Below are positions 1 to 13,135 of a DNA stretch of 43,558 nucleotides, piece after piece. A program made the position numbers and the translations under genes. Each line of letters starts with the position of its first letter. The first letter of the stretch is position 1. The stretch comes from Candidatus Ancillula glyptotermitis (lineage in GTDB: Bacteria > Actinomycetota > Actinomycetes > Actinomycetales > Bifidobacteriaceae): assembly GCA_031268675.1 (NCBI GenBank), contig JAIRWY010000088.1, forward strand, positions 1-43,558, in the 5' to 3' direction. Under the pieces are notes generated by a model. It was not told where the DNA came from and did no database searches. It was given only the letters and a program-made list of their open reading frames with translations.

Positions 1-3000
1 ACTTTTGATCCGTCAAGCTTTCCTTTTTGTGTTCCATCATTTTCAACCTCTCCGCCAGGTTCTACGATTACGCGCCCAGTATTATCCACATGTAGTGTGC
101 CGCCATCTGCAATATACAACTTCCCAAATACATCAACAATTCCACCATCTGCAACAGTTAGTGTTTTTCCACTTGGGATGCTTACTTTTTCAACTGCAGA
201 AATAGTAAAAGTTCCACCACTTGGTATTTTCAGATCAGACTTGAGATCTACAAGTATAGTAGTGTTTGATGCATCAACAGAAAACTTATCCGAGCCAACC
301 AATATGCCGTTTTCTGGGTCATTACTTCCGCCTTTTATTGTAGTGGTCAAGATTATGGGGTGGTTCGTAATAGTCGTACTTGTCAAAGTATCGGTGTTAA
401 TACCACTTCCAGTTGCAATAATTGTTCCACCAGAAATATTAAAAGTGCTGGTTTGATCTAGGTTCTTTCCACTTCCTGCACCCATAGCCAAACAACTTTC
501 GGGCGCTAGTGCTGTAATTGATCCACCTGTGATATTTATATTGCCTACAGGAGCAAATTTACTACTACCAATTGCTGGAGAAGAAATATCTCCACAAGTA
601 TGCGGCAATAACTTTGCTGTAACTGCACCTCCAGAAATGTTGATTGTATAATGTTCTAGGTTATATGATTTGCTGTCAACATAAAGTTCATACGGATCTC
701 CACCACCAATTGCTGATGCATTGTCACCACCAATCGCATTAACAACTCCGCCGTTTATAGTTATATTTCCGCTAGCTCCAGAATATCCACCGCCGATACC
801 AGCTGCTCCAGTAGCACCAATTGCAGTAACATCTCCACCATTTATAGTAATATCTCCACCAGGTGAATATGCACCTCCTCCAATTCCTGCTCCACCAGCT
901 TGTTCTACTTCAGAACCTACACTAGAAAAATCAGCACCTTTTGCAAATATAGTTCCGCCATTAATTGTGATAGATCCTAGTCTTTCTTGTGATCCACCTC
1001 CAGTGCCTATTGCAGCAGCATCCCCCATTTCTTCAAGCTTGGTCTCAACACTTGCATTGAGAATTCCGTTTTTATTATTATCCCCGTCTGCACTTGTAAT
1101 CGTTAATTTGCTACCAGTAGGTACATATATTGCAGGAGATCTTGAATCAATGGTTTTCAAGGTATTAGTTCCTTTAAGATTAAGCGTGGCAGTGCCAAGA
1201 ACTGCAATTGGAGGTATATTCTCTTCAGAAATTATTTGAGCATCTACAAGCGTAATTGTCACTACTGAATCGACAGTCATCATTTTTATATGCTTTTTAG
1301 TTGTACTACCAGTAATAACCACATTTGCACCATTATCTATATAGTAACAATCCAAATTCCCGAGTTCGTATGCGCTGTAACAGTCTCTTAGCTGCCATCC
1401 AACACCATCAATTATACTTTCATCATTAAGATTGATAGTGGATGACCCTCGCACTCCGCTTATTGTTGAAGTTTTTACTATTCCACTTTTATATGTATTA
1501 TTGGCTTTAGATCTTGAAAAGATATAATATATGTTTTTCTCAGTATCAAGTCCTGAAAATGTAGTCTCAGTTTGCCATTTGTTATCAGTTGGTACTACAT
1601 TTTCTGTTGAAATTGCATATTCTATTTCCTGACCTGTTTGATAAATAAGAACTGCAGGATTTAGTACAATGCTTGTTGGCGTTAAAGATTTATATGATGT
1701 AGTTCCTATGTCAGATCCATTCAATTTACCTACTAAAGTTCCATGATTAGAAAAAGATCCATACACATCATGTATAGCATTAGCATTGTTAGAAATATCA
1801 AGAGTTCCAGTTGTTTCAACAGAAAGATTACCACTGAATTCTAGTTTGCCGTTATCTTGAATGCCCAAACTTCCATATATATTAAGTTTTCCACTAGTAT
1901 CAATGGATAATGTCTTGCCATTTGGTACAACGACTTTCCATCCCAAAGGTATAGCAAACCTACTATTTTCTGGAATAATAAAATTGACATTTAAAGTTAT
2001 TGTTTTAGTAGTAGCATTAATGTCTACATCAGCATCTCCAATTAGTGTTCCAGAGTTGGCGTTAGGTATATTCACATCAACTGCACTAAATGCACGTGCT
2101 AAAATTGTAGGATTTCCAAAAATATGCGGCGGAGATGAAATATGCGTAGAGTTAGACCCACTTAGCGTACTACCACTAATAATTCCAGCTGCAATAACTG
2201 TAGTGTACCCATCTACACTAGATATCATGGTTGTACTATCATGCGCATTACCTAATCCACCAATTGCAACCCCATGCGGATCATGCGGTACTGCAATAAC
2301 TGTCCCACTTTCTATAGATATGACACCAACCTTCTCACTTGCTGAATTTGCGCCAAGTGCAGAAGCATCTTGACCTCCGTACACAGTTATAGAATTATCG
2401 TAACCTATATCTCTATTTGAAGATGGCACTTCGACAGTCAAACTAGCATTACCTTTCACATTTAGACCCGCTTTATTATCTGCAGTTGCCTTTAATGTAT
2501 TGTTATTTTTTAAGTTAATATCTACATTTTCAGTGGTAAGAGTAAGTGGAGATTCAGTTTCTGATGTTATACTTACATTGTCCAAATTAACTATTGTATT
2601 CGCATTAGGAGACTCCGCACCAGTCACAACTACCCTCTTATTCGTGGTTGTACCTGAAATTGTTACATCTGCACCGCTGTTGATTGTGTACACGCTAGTT
2701 GTTGAATCGTAAGTCCAACCAGTACCACTTGTTTTTGTTTCTGCTTCGTCTGAAAGCTCGATATTTGTATCTGGGCTTGATAAAGGGGTTATAGTACTTA
2801 GTACACGTGAAGGTACTTGCGCGCTAATTTGCGTGTTTAAATGCGTTATATGGCTATTTGACTCCAAATCTTGCTCAGCAGAATGAGTTTGCACGCCGTT
2901 TTGGTCGTTTAAATGAGCTGCCGCGCCATTATCTTGCGCATCTTGCCCAGAACTAGCAGAATGTTCGCATAAAACTTTAGTTTTATTCAGATCTTGCACG

Positions 3001-3545
3001 TCTTGTTTAGCAGAACCAGCAGAACCGCCGCGTGAAACGTCAGTTTTACTCAAATCTCGTGCGCCTTGCCCATGATTAGCAGAATGTTTGCATAAAACTT
3101 CAGCTTTATTCAGATCTTGTGCGGTGTCTTCTGCAAATGCTGGTAGTTTTATAAATGTGAAGATGGAAAATGCAACAAGTGCAAAAACGGCAATAAGTGG
3201 AGTAATTTTTGCATGAAAATTGCGAAAATTACGCATATTCTGCATATTCTGCGCGCTTGAGTTCTTGTTGTTGTTCGTGCTTGTACTCTTAGTGCTGCTC
3301 GCGCTTGTACTTGTACACAATCTAGTGCGTGCATGTGCAAGATTTACTGCTCCTATTTTACCGCACTTTTTTATGCTTGTGCTAAATCCAGAGTTATTTA
3401 CACTACGCTTTATTTGTGCTTGTGCTAGATTTAGCAATATGTACATTGTTTTGCGCAAGTTGTTTACAGCTTGCACTGTTTTTCGCACTGTTTTTTCAGC
3501 TAGTTCGCCACTTCTACGCACATCCCTATCTGCACTTGAATTCAT
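1..3545 (-). CDS. Large secreted surface protein with beta-helix 'INGG...GIGGG' repeats (3' end outside window)
   Basis: One uninterrupted minus-strand frame runs from ATG 3545 past base 1, so at least 1181 residues are present and the C-terminus is missing. An AGGTGA site ends 10 nt before the ATG. Residues 1-112 are Ser/Asn/Lys-rich. A hydrophobic export segment follows at about 113-138 and ends PAFA-ED, like a signal-peptidase site. Three imperfect ~21-residue repeats (DLNKxxVLCxHSA type) come next. Two related domains then start with a Trp and a 'Y.INSGADVTISG' or 'YYIDNGANVVITG' strand. About six rungs of 'ITINGGxVxAxG...AGIGGG' lie near residues 848-1048. These rungs resemble the right-handed beta-helix repeats of Cthe_2159-type carbohydrate-binding surface proteins. 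The role is probably an adhesin or glycan-binding protein (inference). In-frame ATGs at 3245 and 3236 would give an ordinary signal peptide but lack a Shine-Dalgarno site. Confidence 0.85.
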   Translation of the reverse strand, partial: MNSSADRDVRRSGELAEKTVRKTVQAVNNLRKTMYILLNLAQAQIKRSVNNSGFSTSIKKCGKIGAVNLAHARTRLCTSTSASSTKSTSTNNNKNSSAQNMQNMRNFRNFHAKITPLIAVFALVAFSIFTFIKLPAFAEDTAQDLNKAEVLCKHSANHGQGARDLSKTDVSRGGSAGSAKQDVQDLNKTKVLCEHSASSGQDAQDNGAAAHLNDQNGVQTHSAEQDLESNSHITHLNTQISAQVPSRVLSTITPLSSPDTNIELSDEAETKTSGTGWTYDSTTSVYTINSGADVTISGTTTNKRVVVTGAESPNANTIVNLDNVSITSETESPLTLTTENVDINLKNNNTLKATADNKAGLNVKGNASLTVEVPSSNRDIGYDNSITVYGGQDASALGANSASEKVGVISIESGTVIAVPHDPHGVAIGGLGNAHDSTTMISSVDGYTTVIAAGIISGSTLSGSNSTHISSPPHIFGNPTILARAFSAVDVNIPNANSGTLIGDADVDINATTKTITLNVNFIIPENSRFAIPLGWKVVVPNGKTLSIDTSGKLNIYGSLGIQDNGKLEFSGNLSVETTGTLDISNNANAIHDVYGSFSNHGTLVGKLNGSDIGTTSYKSLTPTSIVLNPAVLIYQTGQEIEYAISTENVVPTDNKWQTETTFSGLDTEKNIYYIFSRSKANNTYKSGIVKTSTISGVRGSSTINLNDESIIDGVGWQLRDCYSAYELGNLDCYYIDNGANVVITGSTTKKHIKMMTVDSVVTITLVDAQIISEENIPPIAVLGTATLNLKGTNTLKTIDSRSPAIYVPTGSKLTITSADGDNNKNGILNASVETKLEEMGDAAAIGTGGGSQERLGSITINGGTIFAKGADFSSVGSEVEQAGGAGIGGGAYSPGGDITINGGDVTAIGATGAAGIGGGYSGASGNITINGGVVNAIGGDNASAIGGGDPYELYVDSKSYNLEHYTINISGGAVTAKLLPHTCGDISSPAIGSSKFAPVGNINITGGSITALAPESCLAMGAGSGKNLDQTSTFNISGGTIIATGSGINTDTLTSTTITNHPIILTTTIKGGSNDPENGILVGSDKFSVDASNTTILVDLKSDLKIPSGGTFTISAVEKVSIPSGKTLTVADGGIVDVFGKLYIADGGTLHVDNTGRVIVEPGGEVENDGTQKGKLDGSK
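2950..3122 (-). repeat. Three tandem ~21-codon repeats in the surface protein
   Basis: The blocks beginning at 2971, 3034 and 3094 on the plus strand are imperfect copies spaced 63 and 60 nt apart. They encode the DLNKAEVLCKHSA / DLSKTDVSRGGSA / DLNKTKVLCEHSA series just after the export signal. Two of the three copies carry a Cys. Confidence 0.75.
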
Positions 3546-3616
3546 CAACTCATCATCACCTGCAATACTCACTTACTTTTCTCCAATCAATATTTGTTTT
3601 CACCGTATATAGTGTT

Positions 3617-4790: not shown

Positions 4791-6827
4791 ATGGAGCAGA
4801 TAGTTCGAACGCTTCTAGCGCTAATTTCTGCAGAACAAGAATCTGCAGTTGTTGGTTTGTCATGTGGAAACTTGCATGATGATGCTGGTCATGAAAATTA
4901 TAGCAACGACCACAATAGTAACCGCGACAGTACAAACAGCGGAAAAAACGACCGAAAGATGATCCAAGCAGCTGCAGTTATGAACGGTTTTACAGGTGGC
5001 TTAATTTCCAAGAAGCGGCTTTTGCCAATCTACCTCAAGCATACTCGCGAGTTCTGGGGAGCCAGCGAAAAAGTTGACGCGAAGATGCGCCAAATTCTGC
5101 AAATAAAACCGCGCAGGACGGCTTCTGGTGTAGCAACAATCACAGTGATGACAAAACCTTGGACCTGCTTAAGTGCATGCATTTACTGCCCCAATGATGT
5201 GCGCATGCCCAAGAGTTATCTTGCTGATGAGCCTGTATGCCAGCGAGCACTCCGAGTGTATTTTGACCCCTACTTGCAGGTGATTTCCAGACTCCGCGCG
5301 CTCAAGCAAATGGGACACCAGACAAATAAGATTGAGTTGATTATTCTTGGTGGTACTTTTACTGACTACCCAGTGGAATATCAGAACTGGTTTATACATG
5401 AACTTTTCCGTGGATTAAACGACTCAGACTTTTCTTCAAAATCTGTTGAAACTACGCCTTATATAAGTGGTAATGAGCAAATGAAAGATAAATATGCACC
5501 AGTTATAGGTAATACGCCAAAAGCAGAAGCGCAGGTCAAGGCTCGCAAGGCATTTTATAAACAAGTTGGGTTACTAAATGTACGCAATGAAATTGATGAA
5601 CAAATGAAAACTACTCAAAAAATGGTGCTAAATCAGGAGTTAACGTATAACCTAGCAATCCGCACTCTTTACCTAGAAAATGATGCATGGAAAGCAGTTG
5701 CAGAATTTCAAAAGTCTACTATGGATGAAATTATCAAGCAGCAGAAACTTAATGAACACAGTACGCATAGAGTGGTTGGACTAGTTGTTGAAACTCGTCC
5801 TGATACTCTCAACACCAAGAAAATGCTGCACCTAAGGCAACTTGGCTGTACTAAAGTTCAAATTGGTTTGCAAAGCCTTGACGAAAAAGTACTTAAGGCG
5901 AACCATCGGAATATAACGCTAGATGAAATTACCAATGCTTTTGCTCTTTTGCGCTTGTACGGTTTTAAGATCCACATTCACTTCATGATGAATTTATATA
6001 CTTCAAATCCTTATAAAGACTTGTTGGACTACGAGAAATTAGTGACAGATCCTAGATTTTTACCAGATGAGATTAAACTGTATCCGTGTATGCTAGTGGA
6101 TGGAACGCCTTTGAAATCGCTATATGAAACAGGTGATTGGACACCATATTCACACGATGAACTAGTTACTTTACTTGCTAAATGCACTAAGAAGACCCCC
6201 CGTTATGCCCGTATTTCACGCATGATTAGAGATATTTCCGCTGCTGATATTTTAGCTGGCAATAAAAAGAGCAATTTACGACAAACTGTTGATATTGAGC
6301 TAAATAAGGAGTTTGAGAACGCAGACACGACCAACAGAATCTGCATAAACGAGATACGATATAGAGAAATTGGTACAAAAAACATCAACACATCTGCCTT
6401 GCAAATGCGCACTCATAGTTATCAAACTAATTATACCACAGAATACTTCATCGAGTGGATAACGGAGCAAGATTTAATTGCAGGATTTTTGCGCCTGAGC
6501 ATTCCAACTGCTGATATTCTAGGTGTAGATAAGCAAAATGACCCATTCTCAGGCTCAATACTAGACCACGCGATGATTAGGGAAGTGCATATATACGGTG
6601 CATCGGTAGCGCTAAATCCTCAAGAATTATCAGGAGCAAGCAAAACCCAGCACAAGGGTTTAGGGCGCAAGTTAATTGCTGAGGCTGAAAATATCGCGCG
6701 CATGCATAATCGGAAGTTCATACGGGTAATTAGTGCTGTTGGTACGCGTGATTACTACAGAAAGCAGGGTTTTTCAGACTCTGAGTTGTACCAGATTAAG
6801 GAACTAAAGGTAGAACCAGATGAATAA
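4791..6827 (+). CDS. elp3: Elp3-type tRNA U34 carboxymethyl synthase (radical SAM + GNAT)
   Basis: Single-chain Elp3 enzymes use acetyl-CoA and S-adenosylmethionine to add the carboxymethyl precursor at C5 of wobble uridine 34 in tRNA. The protein has 678 residues. The radical-SAM cysteines are C126, C130 and C133 (CLSACIYC). They are followed by the Elp3 signature PKSYLADEP, by RALKQMGHQTNKIELIILGG, and later by VVGLVVETRPD and QIGLQSLDE. A GNAT acetyltransferase domain fills roughly residues 560-675, with the acetyl-CoA loop QHKGLG and the ending GTRDYYRKQGF. Length and domain order fit prokaryotic Elp3. ATG 4791 is the first start after an in-frame TGA. No clear Shine-Dalgarno site precedes it. 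It overlaps the methyltransferase gene by 8 nt. Elp3 is patchy in bacteria, so transfer is possible. Confidence 0.93.
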   Translation: MEQIVRTLLALISAEQESAVVGLSCGNLHDDAGHENYSNDHNSNRDSTNSGKNDRKMIQAAAVMNGFTGGLISKKRLLPIYLKHTREFWGASEKVDAKMRQILQIKPRRTASGVATITVMTKPWTCLSACIYCPNDVRMPKSYLADEPVCQRALRVYFDPYLQVISRLRALKQMGHQTNKIELIILGGTFTDYPVEYQNWFIHELFRGLNDSDFSSKSVETTPYISGNEQMKDKYAPVIGNTPKAEAQVKARKAFYKQVGLLNVRNEIDEQMKTTQKMVLNQELTYNLAIRTLYLENDAWKAVAEFQKSTMDEIIKQQKLNEHSTHRVVGLVVETRPDTLNTKKMLHLRQLGCTKVQIGLQSLDEKVLKANHRNITLDEITNAFALLRLYGFKIHIHFMMNLYTSNPYKDLLDYEKLVTDPRFLPDEIKLYPCMLVDGTPLKSLYETGDWTPYSHDELVTLLAKCTKKTPRYARISRMIRDISAADILAGNKKSNLRQTVDIELNKEFENADTTNRICINEIRYREIGTKNINTSALQMRTHSYQTNYTTEYFIEWITEQDLIAGFLRLSIPTADILGVDKQNDPFSGSILDHAMIREVHIYGASVALNPQELSGASKTQHKGLGRKLIAEAENIARMHNRKFIRVISAVGTRDYYRKQGFSDSELYQIKELKVEPDE

Positions 6828-7731
6828 AGTTGCAGCTGAGTTCCTCGCGAACCTAAATAATGAGTTCTACAACAATAATGCACAGTCATTTGCTAGTACA
6901 CGGAAAACGGCGTGGACTGGATGGGACTTGGGCATGCAGATTATTAGCAAGGATATGAAAAACCAGCAACTTAACGCTCATCTAAATAGTTCTTTTTACC
7001 TAAATTTGAATCACAAAATAACTACTCAGGATACAGAAAGTATGCTAAATACCCCAGATCAGCAAATATCTGCACATAATAGTATACCATTTCAAATTTT
7101 GGATATTGCAGCAGGAAATTTGCGTTTTGAGCAGTTTGTACGCAATAAATACCCAGATCTTTGCTCAAAATTTACTGCAATTGACCACTCACAGGAGCTG
7201 TTTGACTCTTCAGAGTTTATGAATGATGATGTTGAATTTATTAGAGAAGATGTTGTGGAGAAAATACTCTACGGGCAAAAAATATGCAGCAAAAAGGCGG
7301 ATCTTGTGGCTTGTTTTGGGTTTATGCATCATGTGCCAGGTTTTGATAATAGAAAGCAGTTCTTTAACCAACTTGCAGAAATTACACGCCCAGGAGGTTA
7401 TCTATTCGTGTCATTTTGGGGATTTGCAAACACCGAACCAGGATTAAAAAAAGCGCACAACTTCACAGCTGAATTTATGGCATATGATGATTTGTACAAA
7501 GCACATTGCTGTAATTTAACTGAAGAATTAGAGCATGATGATTACTTTTTGGGGTGGAAGAATAACGGAACATATAGATATTGCCACAACTTTCAAGATG
7601 AAGAAATTGACCAGCTTAAATTTGCTCTTGAAGTAAATGGACAGTTCACACTCATCAAGAAATATAAAGCTGATGGCAAATCAGGCGCTGAAAACACGTA
7701 CTTGGTTATGCGGCGAAACAGTGCATATTAA
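6820..7731 (+). CDS. Trm9-like class I SAM methyltransferase, partner of Elp3
   Basis: The 303-residue protein begins NLNNEFYNNNAQSFASTRKTAW, a pattern like the FY..hA..Fs.TR..pWp start of Trm9/ALKBH8-type tRNA methyltransferases. A Rossmann SAM-binding core follows: ILDIAAGN (motif I, with AAG for the usual GCG), the acidic strand end FTAID, and CFGFMHHVPG..NRKQFF with LAEITRPGGYLFVSFW. The C-terminal half has DDYFLGWKNNGTYRYCHNF. Yeast Trm9 methylates the carboxymethyl group made by Elp3 to give mcm5U34. The 8-nt overlap with elp3 suggests translational coupling and the same pathway. That function is inferred from family resemblance and context. No Trm112-like partner is in the window. Confidence 0.78.
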   Translation: MNKVAAEFLANLNNEFYNNNAQSFASTRKTAWTGWDLGMQIISKDMKNQQLNAHLNSSFYLNLNHKITTQDTESMLNTPDQQISAHNSIPFQILDIAAGNLRFEQFVRNKYPDLCSKFTAIDHSQELFDSSEFMNDDVEFIREDVVEKILYGQKICSKKADLVACFGFMHHVPGFDNRKQFFNQLAEITRPGGYLFVSFWGFANTEPGLKKAHNFTAEFMAYDDLYKAHCCNLTEELEHDDYFLGWKNNGTYRYCHNFQDEEIDQLKFALEVNGQFTLIKKYKADGKSGAENTYLVMRRNSAY

Positions 7732-9874: not shown

Positions 9875-10614
9875 CGCACAATTGGTGATTTCGGAGCAGA
9901 AACATCAAGAGTTGTCTTACCAGCAATTAGTTCACTAGCCATTATCTGCTTTATATCTGCAAGTTTAAGCGTCAACTGGTTGGTATTACCAATAACGATA
10001 TTGAAACCACTGTTTTGAATTATCGTAATATCATCACGCGTATTTGCGGTAATTGCTTTAATATTCAATTGTTCATTCGCAATCGTGTCCAGAATGCGCA
10101 GTACATCATGTTTTGCCTCAGCAGTTGCAACAACTTCTGGATATACGGGCATATTTTGTGCAACATCGCCTAAAACTTCACCTTCTTTATCAACGAGCTT
10201 ATCCCCAATCCTACATATTGGTTTTCTAGGCTCAATAACAACTGCAATTTCATGCGGCCATTGTTTCATAACCGTAACTGATTTTACACCATGCATATGA
10301 GATATTTCATCTTGCATTTTATCTGTGCTAAACAGTATTAGCGAATGCTTTTCAGTTTGAAACCTGTTGCTTATATTATTCAATGCTTCTCTATCTACAA
10401 ATACTGGATATTGCTGATCATCAAGACCGAAGAAGTTTACTTTTTGTATCTGAAAAATTGACGAAAACAGTAGAATATATAATCCACCAGTTAATCCTAA
10501 ACATATAAAAAAATAACGAAGTAGACGTATTACCATCATTCTAACTGCAAAGCGTCGTTTTTCTAGCGCTCTTTGTTCAATTTCCGACAGATTTTTACTA
10601 CTAAACACCAACAA
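9871..10614 (-). CDS. ftsQ: Cell division protein FtsQ
   Basis: The 247-residue protein has a cytoplasmic tail of about 32 residues rich in Arg, one membrane helix (about 33-53), and then IQKVNFFGLDDQQYPVF, the start of a FtsQ POTRA domain. VTVMKQWPHEIAVVIEPRKPICRI is the conserved POTRA end (V.r.wP..l.i.v.Er.P). FtsQ links early and late divisome proteins through the FtsB-FtsL subcomplex. It overlaps the murG-murC stop by 14 nt and ends the cell-wall cluster, as FtsQ does in bifidobacteria, with no ftsA or ftsZ following. Confidence 0.92.
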   Translation of the reverse strand: MLVFSSKNLSEIEQRALEKRRFAVRMMVIRLLRYFFICLGLTGGLYILLFSSIFQIQKVNFFGLDDQQYPVFVDREALNNISNRFQTEKHSLILFSTDKMQDEISHMHGVKSVTVMKQWPHEIAVVIEPRKPICRIGDKLVDKEGEVLGDVAQNMPVYPEVVATAEAKHDVLRILDTIANEQLNIKAITANTRDDITIIQNSGFNIVIGNTNQLTLKLADIKQIMASELIAGKTTLDVSAPKSPIVR

Positions 10615-13006
10615 CCTTTTTAAAAATATCTATAAGTGACGGACCTGCACCAACACTCAAAATAACCGCTCCTTTACTGCTCTTTTTTGCTTCATCAAGT
10701 GCCATTTTTACCCCACTTTCAAGCGTGTTGGTAGTAAATATTTTTGAATTATATTGAGCTATTGTATTAGGAGAAACATCTGGAAAGTCTTCTTGGATTT
10801 CTCTTGCTGGGTAAATTTTAGTTACTATTGGAACATCCATGCGCCCAAGTTGTTGTGCAAATTCTTCAGCAAAATTAAGAGTACGTGAAAATAGATGTGG
10901 TTGGAAAAGAGCAATAATTTGCTTATCTGGATATTTCTCTAATGCAGCATCTAGTAATACTCGTATTTCTGTTGGATGATGTGCATAATCATCAACAACT
11001 TCAATTGACTTACCGTTGAAATTTAATTCATGAACCTGAAATCGGCGCTGTGCCCCTTGAAACTCGGATAATGCAGTTCTAGCTTCATTTTCACGCGCTC
11101 CGACGATTCCAGAAGCCAAAAGAGCAAGTCTAGCATTTACACGATTGTACTCACCTGGAACCTGCAAATTAACTGCACAAGTAGAATCTATAATGTGCAG
11201 ATTTTCTCGCGGAAGTTGCAATATATCTTGAACTTCAGGAGTGACAACAACATCTTTTGAATTTGCTGCATATCTTCTAAAAGTATTACAAATGTTGTCA
11301 AAATTCTTGTAGAAATCTAAATGATCAGCCTCAATACTTGTGATTATTGCAACATCTGAATGATATTTAATAAAACTGCCATCGGATTCATCTGCCTCAG
11401 CAACCACTATATGCATACTTTTATCCAAATATCCCCCATTTGTATTCTCTTTGCAAATTTGAGCTTCTGCACCGATGATGAATGAAGAGTTGGCATTAAA
11501 AAATATACTAGCAAGCATAGAAGTTACTGTAGTTTTCCCATGACTACCAGCAACTGTTATACTAATATCGTGTGCATTTAACAGAAGTTCAAGCGCATCT
11601 GATCTATGGAACACATGAAATTTACCAGAATTTGACTTATACAACTCTATAGCTTTATTCAGCTCCAAGTTCTCACGTTTTATTGCAGATGAATATACAA
11701 GTGCATCAACTTTAGGGCTACCATTGACATCAACTATATGTTTCGGACTATGTCCTCCAGTTGCACTATCACAACCAGTTACTTTTGACAACAACGAGAA
11801 ACAAGTAGCAATTGGAGCAATTCCTGCACCCGAAATTGCCATAAAATGCACATTTTTGCAATCATTAAGCAACTTTTTCGCCAAGATTTGATCAATTTTC
11901 TTCGCAAGCAATTTCGCACCATCTGCATTTGCATTTTTTGCTGCAGCATTACTCATTTGAGCAAGCTTTTCTTGTCCTTTTAGTAACTCAATAACTTCAG
12001 ACTTTATAAAATTTGCGTTGAACTCTGAATCATCAACAATTATCGTACCAGAACCCAAAAGTCTCGCATTCAAATGCTGTTCACCGTTTCCAATTGGTAA
12101 AGGAACTAAAACACTTGCCTTTTGCATAATCGCCAATTCATGAACCGTACCAGCACCACTTCTAGCAATAACTAAATCAGCATCCTGCATTAACTCGCTG
12201 ATATTATCGGAGTACTCAAGAACCTGATATTTCAGCGCTTTTTCTGGATTAGACTTTACGAGTTGTTCTCTGTACTCAAGAGCTTCTTCTGCTTTTTCAT
12301 ATCCAGTTATATGAACTACACTTGCATTATCTAGTAATTCATCAAGAGCTTCAATTACTGCTCTGTTGATTGAAACTGCACCTAGCGAACCCCCGAACAC
12401 TAAGAGTTGTGGTAATTTGTCATTACTTGTATCTTTTTGCGAACTTCTTGATAAAACAGCAACTGGAAGTCCAGTGCATTCAGCAACATCCATTTTAGCA
12501 CGCAAGCTGCGCGGCAACTTTGTGTAGTGAAATGTATATGCGAAGTAGTTGCATATTTTAGCACCAAGAATATTTGCAAGACCAACTTTTGCATTTTGCT
12601 CATGTACAACAACTGGGATTTTTCGCCGCGATGCTGCAATATATGCAGGTGCTGCAATATATCCTCCAAAACCGACAACAACTTGAATATTTTCATCAAC
12701 TAGTATTTTTTCAACATCTTTAACTACTGAAAAAAATCGAAGAGGAAGTGTAAGATTCTTCGCAATCTGCTTTAGGCTCCTTACGACTGGAGTTTTTCTA
12801 ACCTTGAACAATTTGTATCCACTAGTTGGAACAAGTTTTTCCTCTAGTCCATTACTGCCTAGAAAAACTGCGTCTACTCCACGACCTTTTAGTTCATTTG
12901 CAACGCAGATTGCGGGTTTTATATGTCCTGCGGTTCCTCCCGCTGCTAGTAATACTTTGAATTTTGGCACACGCTGAAATCTTGAAGAATTGTCTTGTAC
13001 ATCCAC
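10601..13006 (-). CDS. murG-murC: MurG-MurC fusion protein (lipid II GlcNAc transferase / UDP-MurNAc-L-alanine ligase)
   Basis: A single 801-residue frame carries two peptidoglycan enzymes. Residues 1 to about 380 are MurG: LLAAGGTAGHIKPA, VVGFGGYIAAP, VVHEQNAKVGLAN, LLVFGGSLGA, and RSGAGTVHEL with GNGEQHLNA. From about 384 it is MurC: HFMAISGAGIAPIA, VYSSAIKRENLEL, the ATP loop AGSHGKTTVTS, EADESDGSF, EADHLDFY, DDYAHHPTEI and FQPHLFSRT. There is almost no linker and no stop between them. MurG is membrane-associated and transfers GlcNAc to lipid I; MurC is cytosolic. The start is GTG 13006, exactly 6 nt after a TGTGGTATAAT element, so the mRNA is probably leaderless. Longer frames run through the SRP RNA gene and are not real. 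Confidence 0.93.
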   Translation of the reverse strand: MDVQDNSSRFQRVPKFKVLLAAGGTAGHIKPAICVANELKGRGVDAVFLGSNGLEEKLVPTSGYKLFKVRKTPVVRSLKQIAKNLTLPLRFFSVVKDVEKILVDENIQVVVGFGGYIAAPAYIAASRRKIPVVVHEQNAKVGLANILGAKICNYFAYTFHYTKLPRSLRAKMDVAECTGLPVAVLSRSSQKDTSNDKLPQLLVFGGSLGAVSINRAVIEALDELLDNASVVHITGYEKAEEALEYREQLVKSNPEKALKYQVLEYSDNISELMQDADLVIARSGAGTVHELAIMQKASVLVPLPIGNGEQHLNARLLGSGTIIVDDSEFNANFIKSEVIELLKGQEKLAQMSNAAAKNANADGAKLLAKKIDQILAKKLLNDCKNVHFMAISGAGIAPIATCFSLLSKVTGCDSATGGHSPKHIVDVNGSPKVDALVYSSAIKRENLELNKAIELYKSNSGKFHVFHRSDALELLLNAHDISITVAGSHGKTTVTSMLASIFFNANSSFIIGAEAQICKENTNGGYLDKSMHIVVAEADESDGSFIKYHSDVAIITSIEADHLDFYKNFDNICNTFRRYAANSKDVVVTPEVQDILQLPRENLHIIDSTCAVNLQVPGEYNRVNARLALLASGIVGARENEARTALSEFQGAQRRFQVHELNFNGKSIEVVDDYAHHPTEIRVLLDAALEKYPDKQIIALFQPHLFSRTLNFAEEFAQQLGRMDVPIVTKIYPAREIQEDFPDVSPNTIAQYNSKIFTTNTLESGVKMALDEAKKSSKGAVILSVGAGPSLIDIFKKVVGV

Positions 13007-13012
13007 ACTATA

Positions 13013-13023
13013 ATTATACCACA
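13013..13023 (-). promoter_or_regulatory. Leaderless promoter of murG-murC
   Basis: TGTGGTATAAT ends 6 nt before GTG 13006, so the predicted +1 is the G of the start codon. No strong -35 is visible. It begins right after the SRP RNA terminator. Confidence 0.85.
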
Positions 13024-13051
13024 CAATACACTCAACAAGCAGTATAAAAAT

Positions 13052-13135
13052 GCCTAGCACACCATCATCTCGATCGCTTATCCTTGCTACATTCCTGTCC
13101 TGGGGAGGTTCAGCGTGACACAATCCGTACTAGGC
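13052..13135 (-). ncRNA. ffs: SRP RNA (small bacterial type)
   Basis: The minus strand contains the SRP domain IV core CCAGGACAGGAATGTAGCAAGG. It has the GGAA tetraloop, closed by ACA/TGT, and the AGCA side of the Ffh-binding internal loop. The ends pair as GCCTAG/CTAGGC, giving an 84-nt hairpin RNA, and a run of five T (13050-13046) follows as terminator. The RNA binds Ffh for membrane protein targeting. It lies between the Xer gene and murG-murC. Confidence 0.93.

Follow-up and report, generated by a model that had tools for sequence, protein, structure and literature searches.

Elp3 and a Trm9-like methyltransferase as a candidate two-gene wobble-uridine module in Candidatus Ancillula and other bacteria

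The locus and its two proteins

The stretch of DNA analysed here, called the window, comprises the 43,558 nucleotides (nt) of contig JAIRWY010000088.1 (positions 1 to 43,558, forward strand) in assembly GCA_031268675.1 of Candidatus Ancillula glyptotermitis (Actinomycetota; Bifidobacteriaceae), a draft genome of 1.80 Mb in 100 contigs that is 82% complete. It contains a gene for Elp3, a single-chain protein with radical S-adenosylmethionine (SAM) and GNAT acetyltransferase domains, the 3' end of which overlaps the start of a gene for a class I SAM-dependent methyltransferase that resembles Trm9 (Table 1). An earlier inspection of this DNA (the original prediction) had proposed that the two genes specify a eukaryote-style route to 5-methoxycarbonylmethyluridine at the wobble position of tRNA (mcm5U34), and the coordinates and overlap that it gave for them were confirmed from the open reading frames. 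We now consider it likely that the two genes form a wobble-uridine modification module, in which Elp3 would make 5-carboxymethyluridine (cm5U34) and the methyltransferase would convert this to mcm5U34, or to the 2-thiolated form mcm5s2U34 when MnmA also acts.

Judged from its sequence, the first protein is a member of the Elp3 family in which all catalytic residues tested are kept. It scores 419 bits against the NCBIfam model TIGR01211 (curated cutoff 350) over residues 75-672 and carries the Pfam domains for radical SAM, the radical SAM C-terminal region and GNAT (PF16199 and PF04055 among the matches). Every PDB sequence that it matches is an Elp3, and the same holds for the 11 best PDB fold matches of its AlphaFold2 (AF2) model, which has a predicted local distance difference test score (pLDDT) of 86.8. 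The cluster cysteines C126, C130 and C133 are invariant in all 105 alignment rows that cover the motif, and K180, K393, E598 and Y655, which correspond to K77, K193, E386 and Y441 of Dehalococcoides mccartyi Elp3, are invariant in the approximately 105 rows covering them. The counterpart of H388, H600, is present as well, at a position that is not invariant across these rows. The roles of these five D. mccartyi residues are described in PMC6367351.

Within the family, the protein belongs to a subfamily, here called window-type, in which the radical SAM part carries an insert of 55-136 amino acids, as against 1-15 in classic Elp3. In the AF2 model of the window protein this insert forms four to five confident predicted helices from residue 243 onwards. 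The Zn-binding cysteines, present in all 11 classic rows, are replaced in nearly all window-type rows, and the middle position is E, D or N in all 95 of them. Since these cysteines are, according to PMC6367351, conserved in bacterial and archaeal Elp3 and absent from eukaryotic Elp3, they do not define the family. The combination of a helical insert and missing Zn cysteines is common to Coriobacteriia, Ancillula and some Patescibacteria.

On the basis of alignments and trees, the second protein is Trm9-like and appears to stand on a sister bacterial branch, and it is not filed here as Trm9 proper. It is recognised as a class I SAM-dependent methyltransferase by Pfam PF08241 (28 bits, cutoff 21), and in NCBIfam it comes near the cutoff of no curated methyltransferase model, the matches of the 40 family members being scattered and weak. 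When a profile of the family (A3) was searched against 177,635 PDB sequences, the top match was the Trm9 chain 5cm2_Z, with an E-value of 6.6e-15 and the runner-up at 5e-9; a profile from which the classic actinobacterial members had been left out (A4) kept it on top, at 6.1e-9 with the next match at 7.8e-6. This chain is the Trm9 of the Yarrowia Trm9-Trm112 complex. In the reverse direction, when the Trm9 sequence was searched against 9,348 frames from the loci, the top 46 matches all fell in this methyltransferase family, and the members from Patescibacteria bridge Trm9 to the window-type proteins.

In yeast Trm9, residues R29, H115, R241, Y243 and N271 position cm5U34, and the mutations R29A, H115A, R241A, Y243A and N271A weaken both its binding to tRNA and its activity (PMC5372719). 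Four of these five residues have a counterpart that is invariant in 40 sequences of the bacterial family (R28, H170/171, R253 and N292), and in the AF2 model (pLDDT 89.4) strands 241-246 and 251-256 form a hairpin at the position of the Trm9 lid. The profile searches, the reverse search and the active-site residues together bear out the likeness to Trm9 that had been noted at the outset. In a Foldseek search with the model, many class I methyltransferases tie, 5cm2_Z being at rank 38 by E-value and having the highest target-normalised template modelling (TM) score in the list (0.72), and this chain is not among the 50 VIA-align rows. Since fold comparison is indiscriminate among class I methyltransferases, it was not used as functional evidence.

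Table 1 Features of the Elp3-methyltransferase locus (positions in the window)
Feature	Position	Strand	Remarks
elp3, single-chain radical SAM and GNAT (KAT) protein	4791-6827	+	678 amino acids; bacterial subfamily with helical insert
Radical SAM cluster motif C126-x3-C130-x2-C133 of Elp3	5166-5189	+	aligned to D. mccartyi Elp3 C23/C27/C30
Insert of about 105 residues in the radical SAM part of Elp3 (residues 211-316)	5421-5738	+	alignment and AF2 model
GNAT/KAT domain of Elp3 (about residues 538-672), with E598, H600, Y655	6402-6806	+	equivalent to D. mccartyi E386/H388/Y441
8-nt overlap of elp3 3' end and methyltransferase start	6820-6827	+	ATG 6820; TAA 6825-6827
Trm9-like class I SAM methyltransferase	6820-7731	+	303 amino acids
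N-terminal Trm9 signature Y..NAQSFASTR..AW (residues 17-32)	6868-6915	+	Y17, R28, W32 invariant, 40 sequences; R28 equivalent to yeast R29
SAM motif I LDIAAGNLRF (residues 94-103)	7099-7128	+	D95, G99, R102, F103 invariant, 40 sequences
HH.P....R motif (H170, H171, R178)	7327-7353	+	invariant, 40 sequences; H170/171 equivalent to yeast Trm9 H115
Lid hairpin DYFLGWK...YRYCH (residues 241-256)	7540-7587	+	R253, H256 invariant, 40 sequences; R253 equivalent to yeast R241
N292, putative equivalent of yeast Trm9 N271	7693-7695	+	invariant, 40 sequences; equivalence from position only

Association of the two genes across bacteria

The pairing of Elp3 and the methyltransferase is far beyond chance. 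Among 396 genomes of Actinomycetota, Elp3 occurs in 32, the methyltransferase in 31 and both in 31, and among 239 genomes of Patescibacteria the corresponding numbers are 89, 71 and 66 (Fisher p ~3e-45 and 9e-33, respectively, uncorrected for kinship). The genes are adjacent and divergent in 57 of the 66 Patescibacteria pairs. A set of 80 named Elp3 loci, nearly all from Coriobacteriia, is not a random sample because these loci are the nearest to the window Elp3 by similarity; in 76 of them the methyltransferase lies in the flank, in divergent orientation (68 loci), in tandem just downstream as in the window (5 loci) or just upstream (3 loci). Genome families f32, f39 and f53 were assigned to Coriobacteriia by their likeness to these loci. 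The association is seen in two phyla, and in the window-type and classic Elp3 groups alike. The neighbourhood search that had been proposed as a check recovers the same pair many times over. Its presence in an actinobacterium is confirmed, and it is not a single odd operon, being widespread in bacteria.

Presence of the methyltransferase without Elp3 is rare (0 of 31 genomes in Actinomycetota, 5 of 71 in Patescibacteria). This bears on the alternative that the enzyme modifies another position in tRNA or rRNA, or a carboxylate of the uridine-5-oxyacetic acid (cmo5U) type in the manner of CmoM, and is only functionally associated with Elp3. Such a role would fit the fold comparison, which also matches METTL6 (3-methylcytidine at tRNA position 32, m3C32) and CmoM at Z 17, and the profile search, in which CmoA is matched weakly. 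An enzyme with a general role in tRNA or rRNA modification should, however, also be found without Elp3, and with Trm9 as the best sequence-profile match and the cm5U-orienting residues mostly kept, we regard another target as very improbable.

Elp3 is present and the methyltransferase was not detected in genome G232 and in 23 Patescibacteria; in these organisms the route might end with cm5U or continue by a different second step. G327 (C4, C6) and G442 (C14, C58) each carry the methyltransferase in duplicate.

Among 39 relatives of the window genome, the methyltransferase is confined to the window's genus, and Elp3 is found in this genus and in one further family member (G016), where only a fragment of it stands at the end of a contig. 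The four genus members (G000-G003), all of them drafts that are 81-89% complete, retain Elp3 together with the methyltransferase or, at the least, its start, with the tandem order in the window genome and in G003. The Elp3 proteins of G001 and G002 are, in the rows of the tree, identical to those of two Candidatus Ancillula records (L087, L095). In G003 (L009:3217-3272) a frame that begins with GTG, MDKITAEFLVNVNNEF, follows Elp3 directly and is cut off by the contig end after 48 nt, the window counterpart being MNKVAAEFLANLNNEF, so that the apparent absence of the methyltransferase from this genome reflects an assembly edge. In G001 (L005:763-2106) a dephospho-CoA kinase (CoaE) domain precedes the methyltransferase in one fused frame, which lies beside a HemW-like gene, away from Elp3.

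Origin of the pair and its pathway context

In the trees of both Elp3 and the methyltransferase, strongly supported branches split the classic from the window-type sequences. Patescibacteria are basal in the window type, and Ancillula clusters with Coriobacteriia. Path distances in one tree correlate with those in the other (r 0.93 overall and 0.66 within the actinobacterial window type), with 0 of 2000 permutations as high. In the methyltransferase tree Trm9 joins the classic bacterial members, the eukaryotes contributing one fragmentary row on a long branch, and the window type lies across a branch with 99% support.

Symbionts of termite flagellates within the Bifidobacteriaceae (Candidatus Ancillula) took up genes from other gut bacteria according to PMC11707648, which makes no mention of Elp3. 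Acquisition of the pair by transfer, which the original prediction had called plausible, is supported by both trees, and its source would be a Coriobacteriia-like bacterium, not a eukaryote, since the closest proteins are those of bacteria, with eukaryotic Trm9 placed outside them. Passage from a Coriobacteriia-like lineage to Ancillula is the simplest account because the rest of the order lacks the pair in the sampled genomes. The exact donor is unsampled, as the Ancillula Elp3 branch is sister to the main sampled Coriobacteriia and is not nested in them. When mobile origin was tested by comparing the methyltransferase with 50,697 phage records, no match was obtained. A similar pair is present in a metagenome-assembled genome of a termite Propionibacteriaceae (L148:4001-6689), and its Elp3 groups with termite Coriobacteriia; this is either another transfer or a binning error.

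For the usual bacterial side chain at U34, MnmG is needed. It is absent from 38 of 38 genomes tested, including the window genome and relatives that lack Elp3, with positive controls. A one-for-one exchange of MnmG for Elp3 is ruled out, since MnmG is also missing in the Elp3-less relatives. The 2-thiolase MnmA is present in the window genome (C96) and in all Coriobacteriia-type genomes tested. As a strict companion of Elp3 it is ruled out, being common in the order and missing from many Bifidobacteriaceae and from drafts G001 and G003. The original prediction had further described a pathway without Trm112; no match to the Trm112 domain PF03966 was detected in any of the four genus members, and 14 of 15 Patescibacteria gave none either, an absence that is suggestive only, because the drafts are incomplete and the domain model has only 40 positions.

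The predicted route and its relation to known systems

In the proposed route, Elp3 alone would use its radical SAM cluster and GNAT-bound acetyl-CoA to carboxymethylate C5 of U34, as expected from its family, and the methyltransferase would use SAM to esterify the carboxylate of cm5U34 without Trm112, as suggested by homology, active-site residues and genomic linkage. MnmA could add the 2-thio group, and because the genome also encodes this enzyme, the end product in the split-box tRNAs (Lys, Glu, Gln) is probably mcm5s2U34. The two-step route that had been predicted stands as the best reading because of the Trm9-like profile, the active-site residues and the linkage to Elp3 across two phyla.

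Several observations weigh against this reading. The methyltransferase has diverged so far that a profile is needed to reach Trm9, a single-sequence search of the PDB giving no match, and Foldseek and VIA-align by themselves fail to single out Trm9. The position of yeast Y243 is occupied by C255, Cys being nearly invariant here in the window-type family, whereas classic bacterial members have Y, F or C, and the change from Tyr to Cys could alter the specificity of the enzyme. In the tree, where Trm9 is a long branch, the window-type methyltransferases form a clade separate from Trm9 and the classic bacterial members. Furthermore, G001 and G002 keep both genes but apart, with the methyltransferase on other contigs, which together with the 23 Elp3-only Patescibacteria indicates that the link between the two genes is not obligate.

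The Cys at the Y243 position would also fit an alternative in which the Elp3 product is indeed the substrate of the methyltransferase, while the end product is a different one or an extra partner is needed, for example through a variant side chain or an Elp3-methyltransferase complex. The Elp3 subfamily with its long insert and lost Zn cysteines, and the tendency of the two proteins to evolve together, point in the same direction. We consider this alternative unlikely: every other known active-site residue of Elp3 and Trm9 that was tested is conserved, and this favours an unchanged chemistry. The lost linkage in G001 and G002 and the reduced genomes of the host lineage (PMC11707648) might further suggest that the pair is decaying or non-functional cargo of a reduced symbiont genome, or that one partner is inactive; with both frames intact, all but one of the residues tested present, and Elp3 and at least the methyltransferase start retained in all four genus members, G003 included, such decay seems extremely improbable.

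The two-step Elp3-methyltransferase route has much in common with the eukaryotic pathway of Elongator and Trm9-Trm112 or ALKBH8: the window Elp3 has the same radical SAM/KAT catalytic residues, and the methyltransferase has the same cm5U-orienting R, H, R and N and the lid hairpin. It differs from that pathway in that Elp3 is a single chain with a bacterial insert, the genes are adjacent, the methyltransferase branch appears to be sister to the Trm9 group and not inside it, with Cys in place of Y243 and no Trm112 detected, and 2-thiolation would be carried out by MnmA, not by Ctu1-Ctu2.

For archaea, a pathway composed of Elp3 and a Trm9 homologue was proposed in 2008, with the genes clustered in Sulfolobus solfataricus (PMC2584109). 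The archaeal proteins (e.g. of Haloferax; PMC2584109, PMC5372719) include an Elp3 without Elongator partners, as is predicted for the window, and lead to the same pathway prediction. However, archaeal Elp3 has the Zn-binding cysteines (PMC6367351) that nearly all window-type Elp3 proteins lack, a partnership of archaeal Trm9 with Trm112 is reported (PMC7694415), some orthologues being fused to it (PMC5372719), and the carriers described here are Actinomycetota and Patescibacteria. Among bacterial proteins, the Elp3 of D. mccartyi (5L7J; PMC6367351) shows tRNA-triggered acetyl-CoA hydrolysis and has K77, K193, E386 and Y441 in common with the window Elp3. Unlike the latter it has no insert and possesses the Zn cysteines, and a methyltransferase partner is unmentioned in the available part of that paper. 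The MnmE-MnmG-MnmC/MnmA route to 5-(carboxymethyl)aminomethyluridine and its 2-thio derivatives, (c)mnm5(s2)U34, likewise targets C5 of U34 in tRNAs for split boxes and has 2-thiolation by MnmA in common with the predicted route, but it uses other chemistry and enzymes than the Elp3-methyltransferase pair.

In a 2020 review (PMC7694415), the formation of mcm5U by Trm9-Trm112 is described for archaea and eukaryotes; bacteria are listed only with 5-carboxymethylaminomethyluridine (cmnm5U), 5-methylaminomethyluridine (mnm5U) and 5-aminomethyluridine (nm5U), and derivatives of cm5U and mcm5U are assigned to archaea and eukaryotes. No report of a bacterial Elp3-Trm9 pair or of bacterial mcm5U was found in the open-access literature. 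It is from the archaeal precedent and this result that the window Elp3 is filed as a family member and the methyltransferase as Trm9-like.

We lean, with less confidence than for the module itself, towards a wider view in which a distinct Elp3 subfamily, with the helical insert and without the Zn knuckle, and a Trm112-free Trm9-like partner serve Coriobacteriia and many Patescibacteria as their standard wobble-uridine system, laterally passed to symbionts of termite flagellates, and in which the Trm9 of eukaryotes and archaea would make up only one portion of a larger family that is mostly bacterial. If the pair works as predicted, common human-gut genera (Collinsella, Adlercreutzia, Slackia) and candidate-phyla bacteria make a wobble modification that is regarded as eukaryotic or archaeal, and since several of the gut genera are in culture the prediction is quickly testable. 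It would also explain U34 modification in lineages without MnmG, provide a simpler model enzyme in the form of a Trm112-independent Trm9, and put the evolutionary origin of Trm9 into a broader bacterial setting.

Around the pair, a scan gave promoters at or below expectation and terminators weakly above it. Elsewhere in the window, MurG and MurC domains occur in a single frame of 840 amino acids on the reverse strand (10601-13123), an apparent MurG-MurC fusion that is followed by FtsQ. A frame of 1190 amino acids on the same strand (3-3572), open at the start of the window, resembles a large secreted or surface protein that is rich in glycine and contains repeats.

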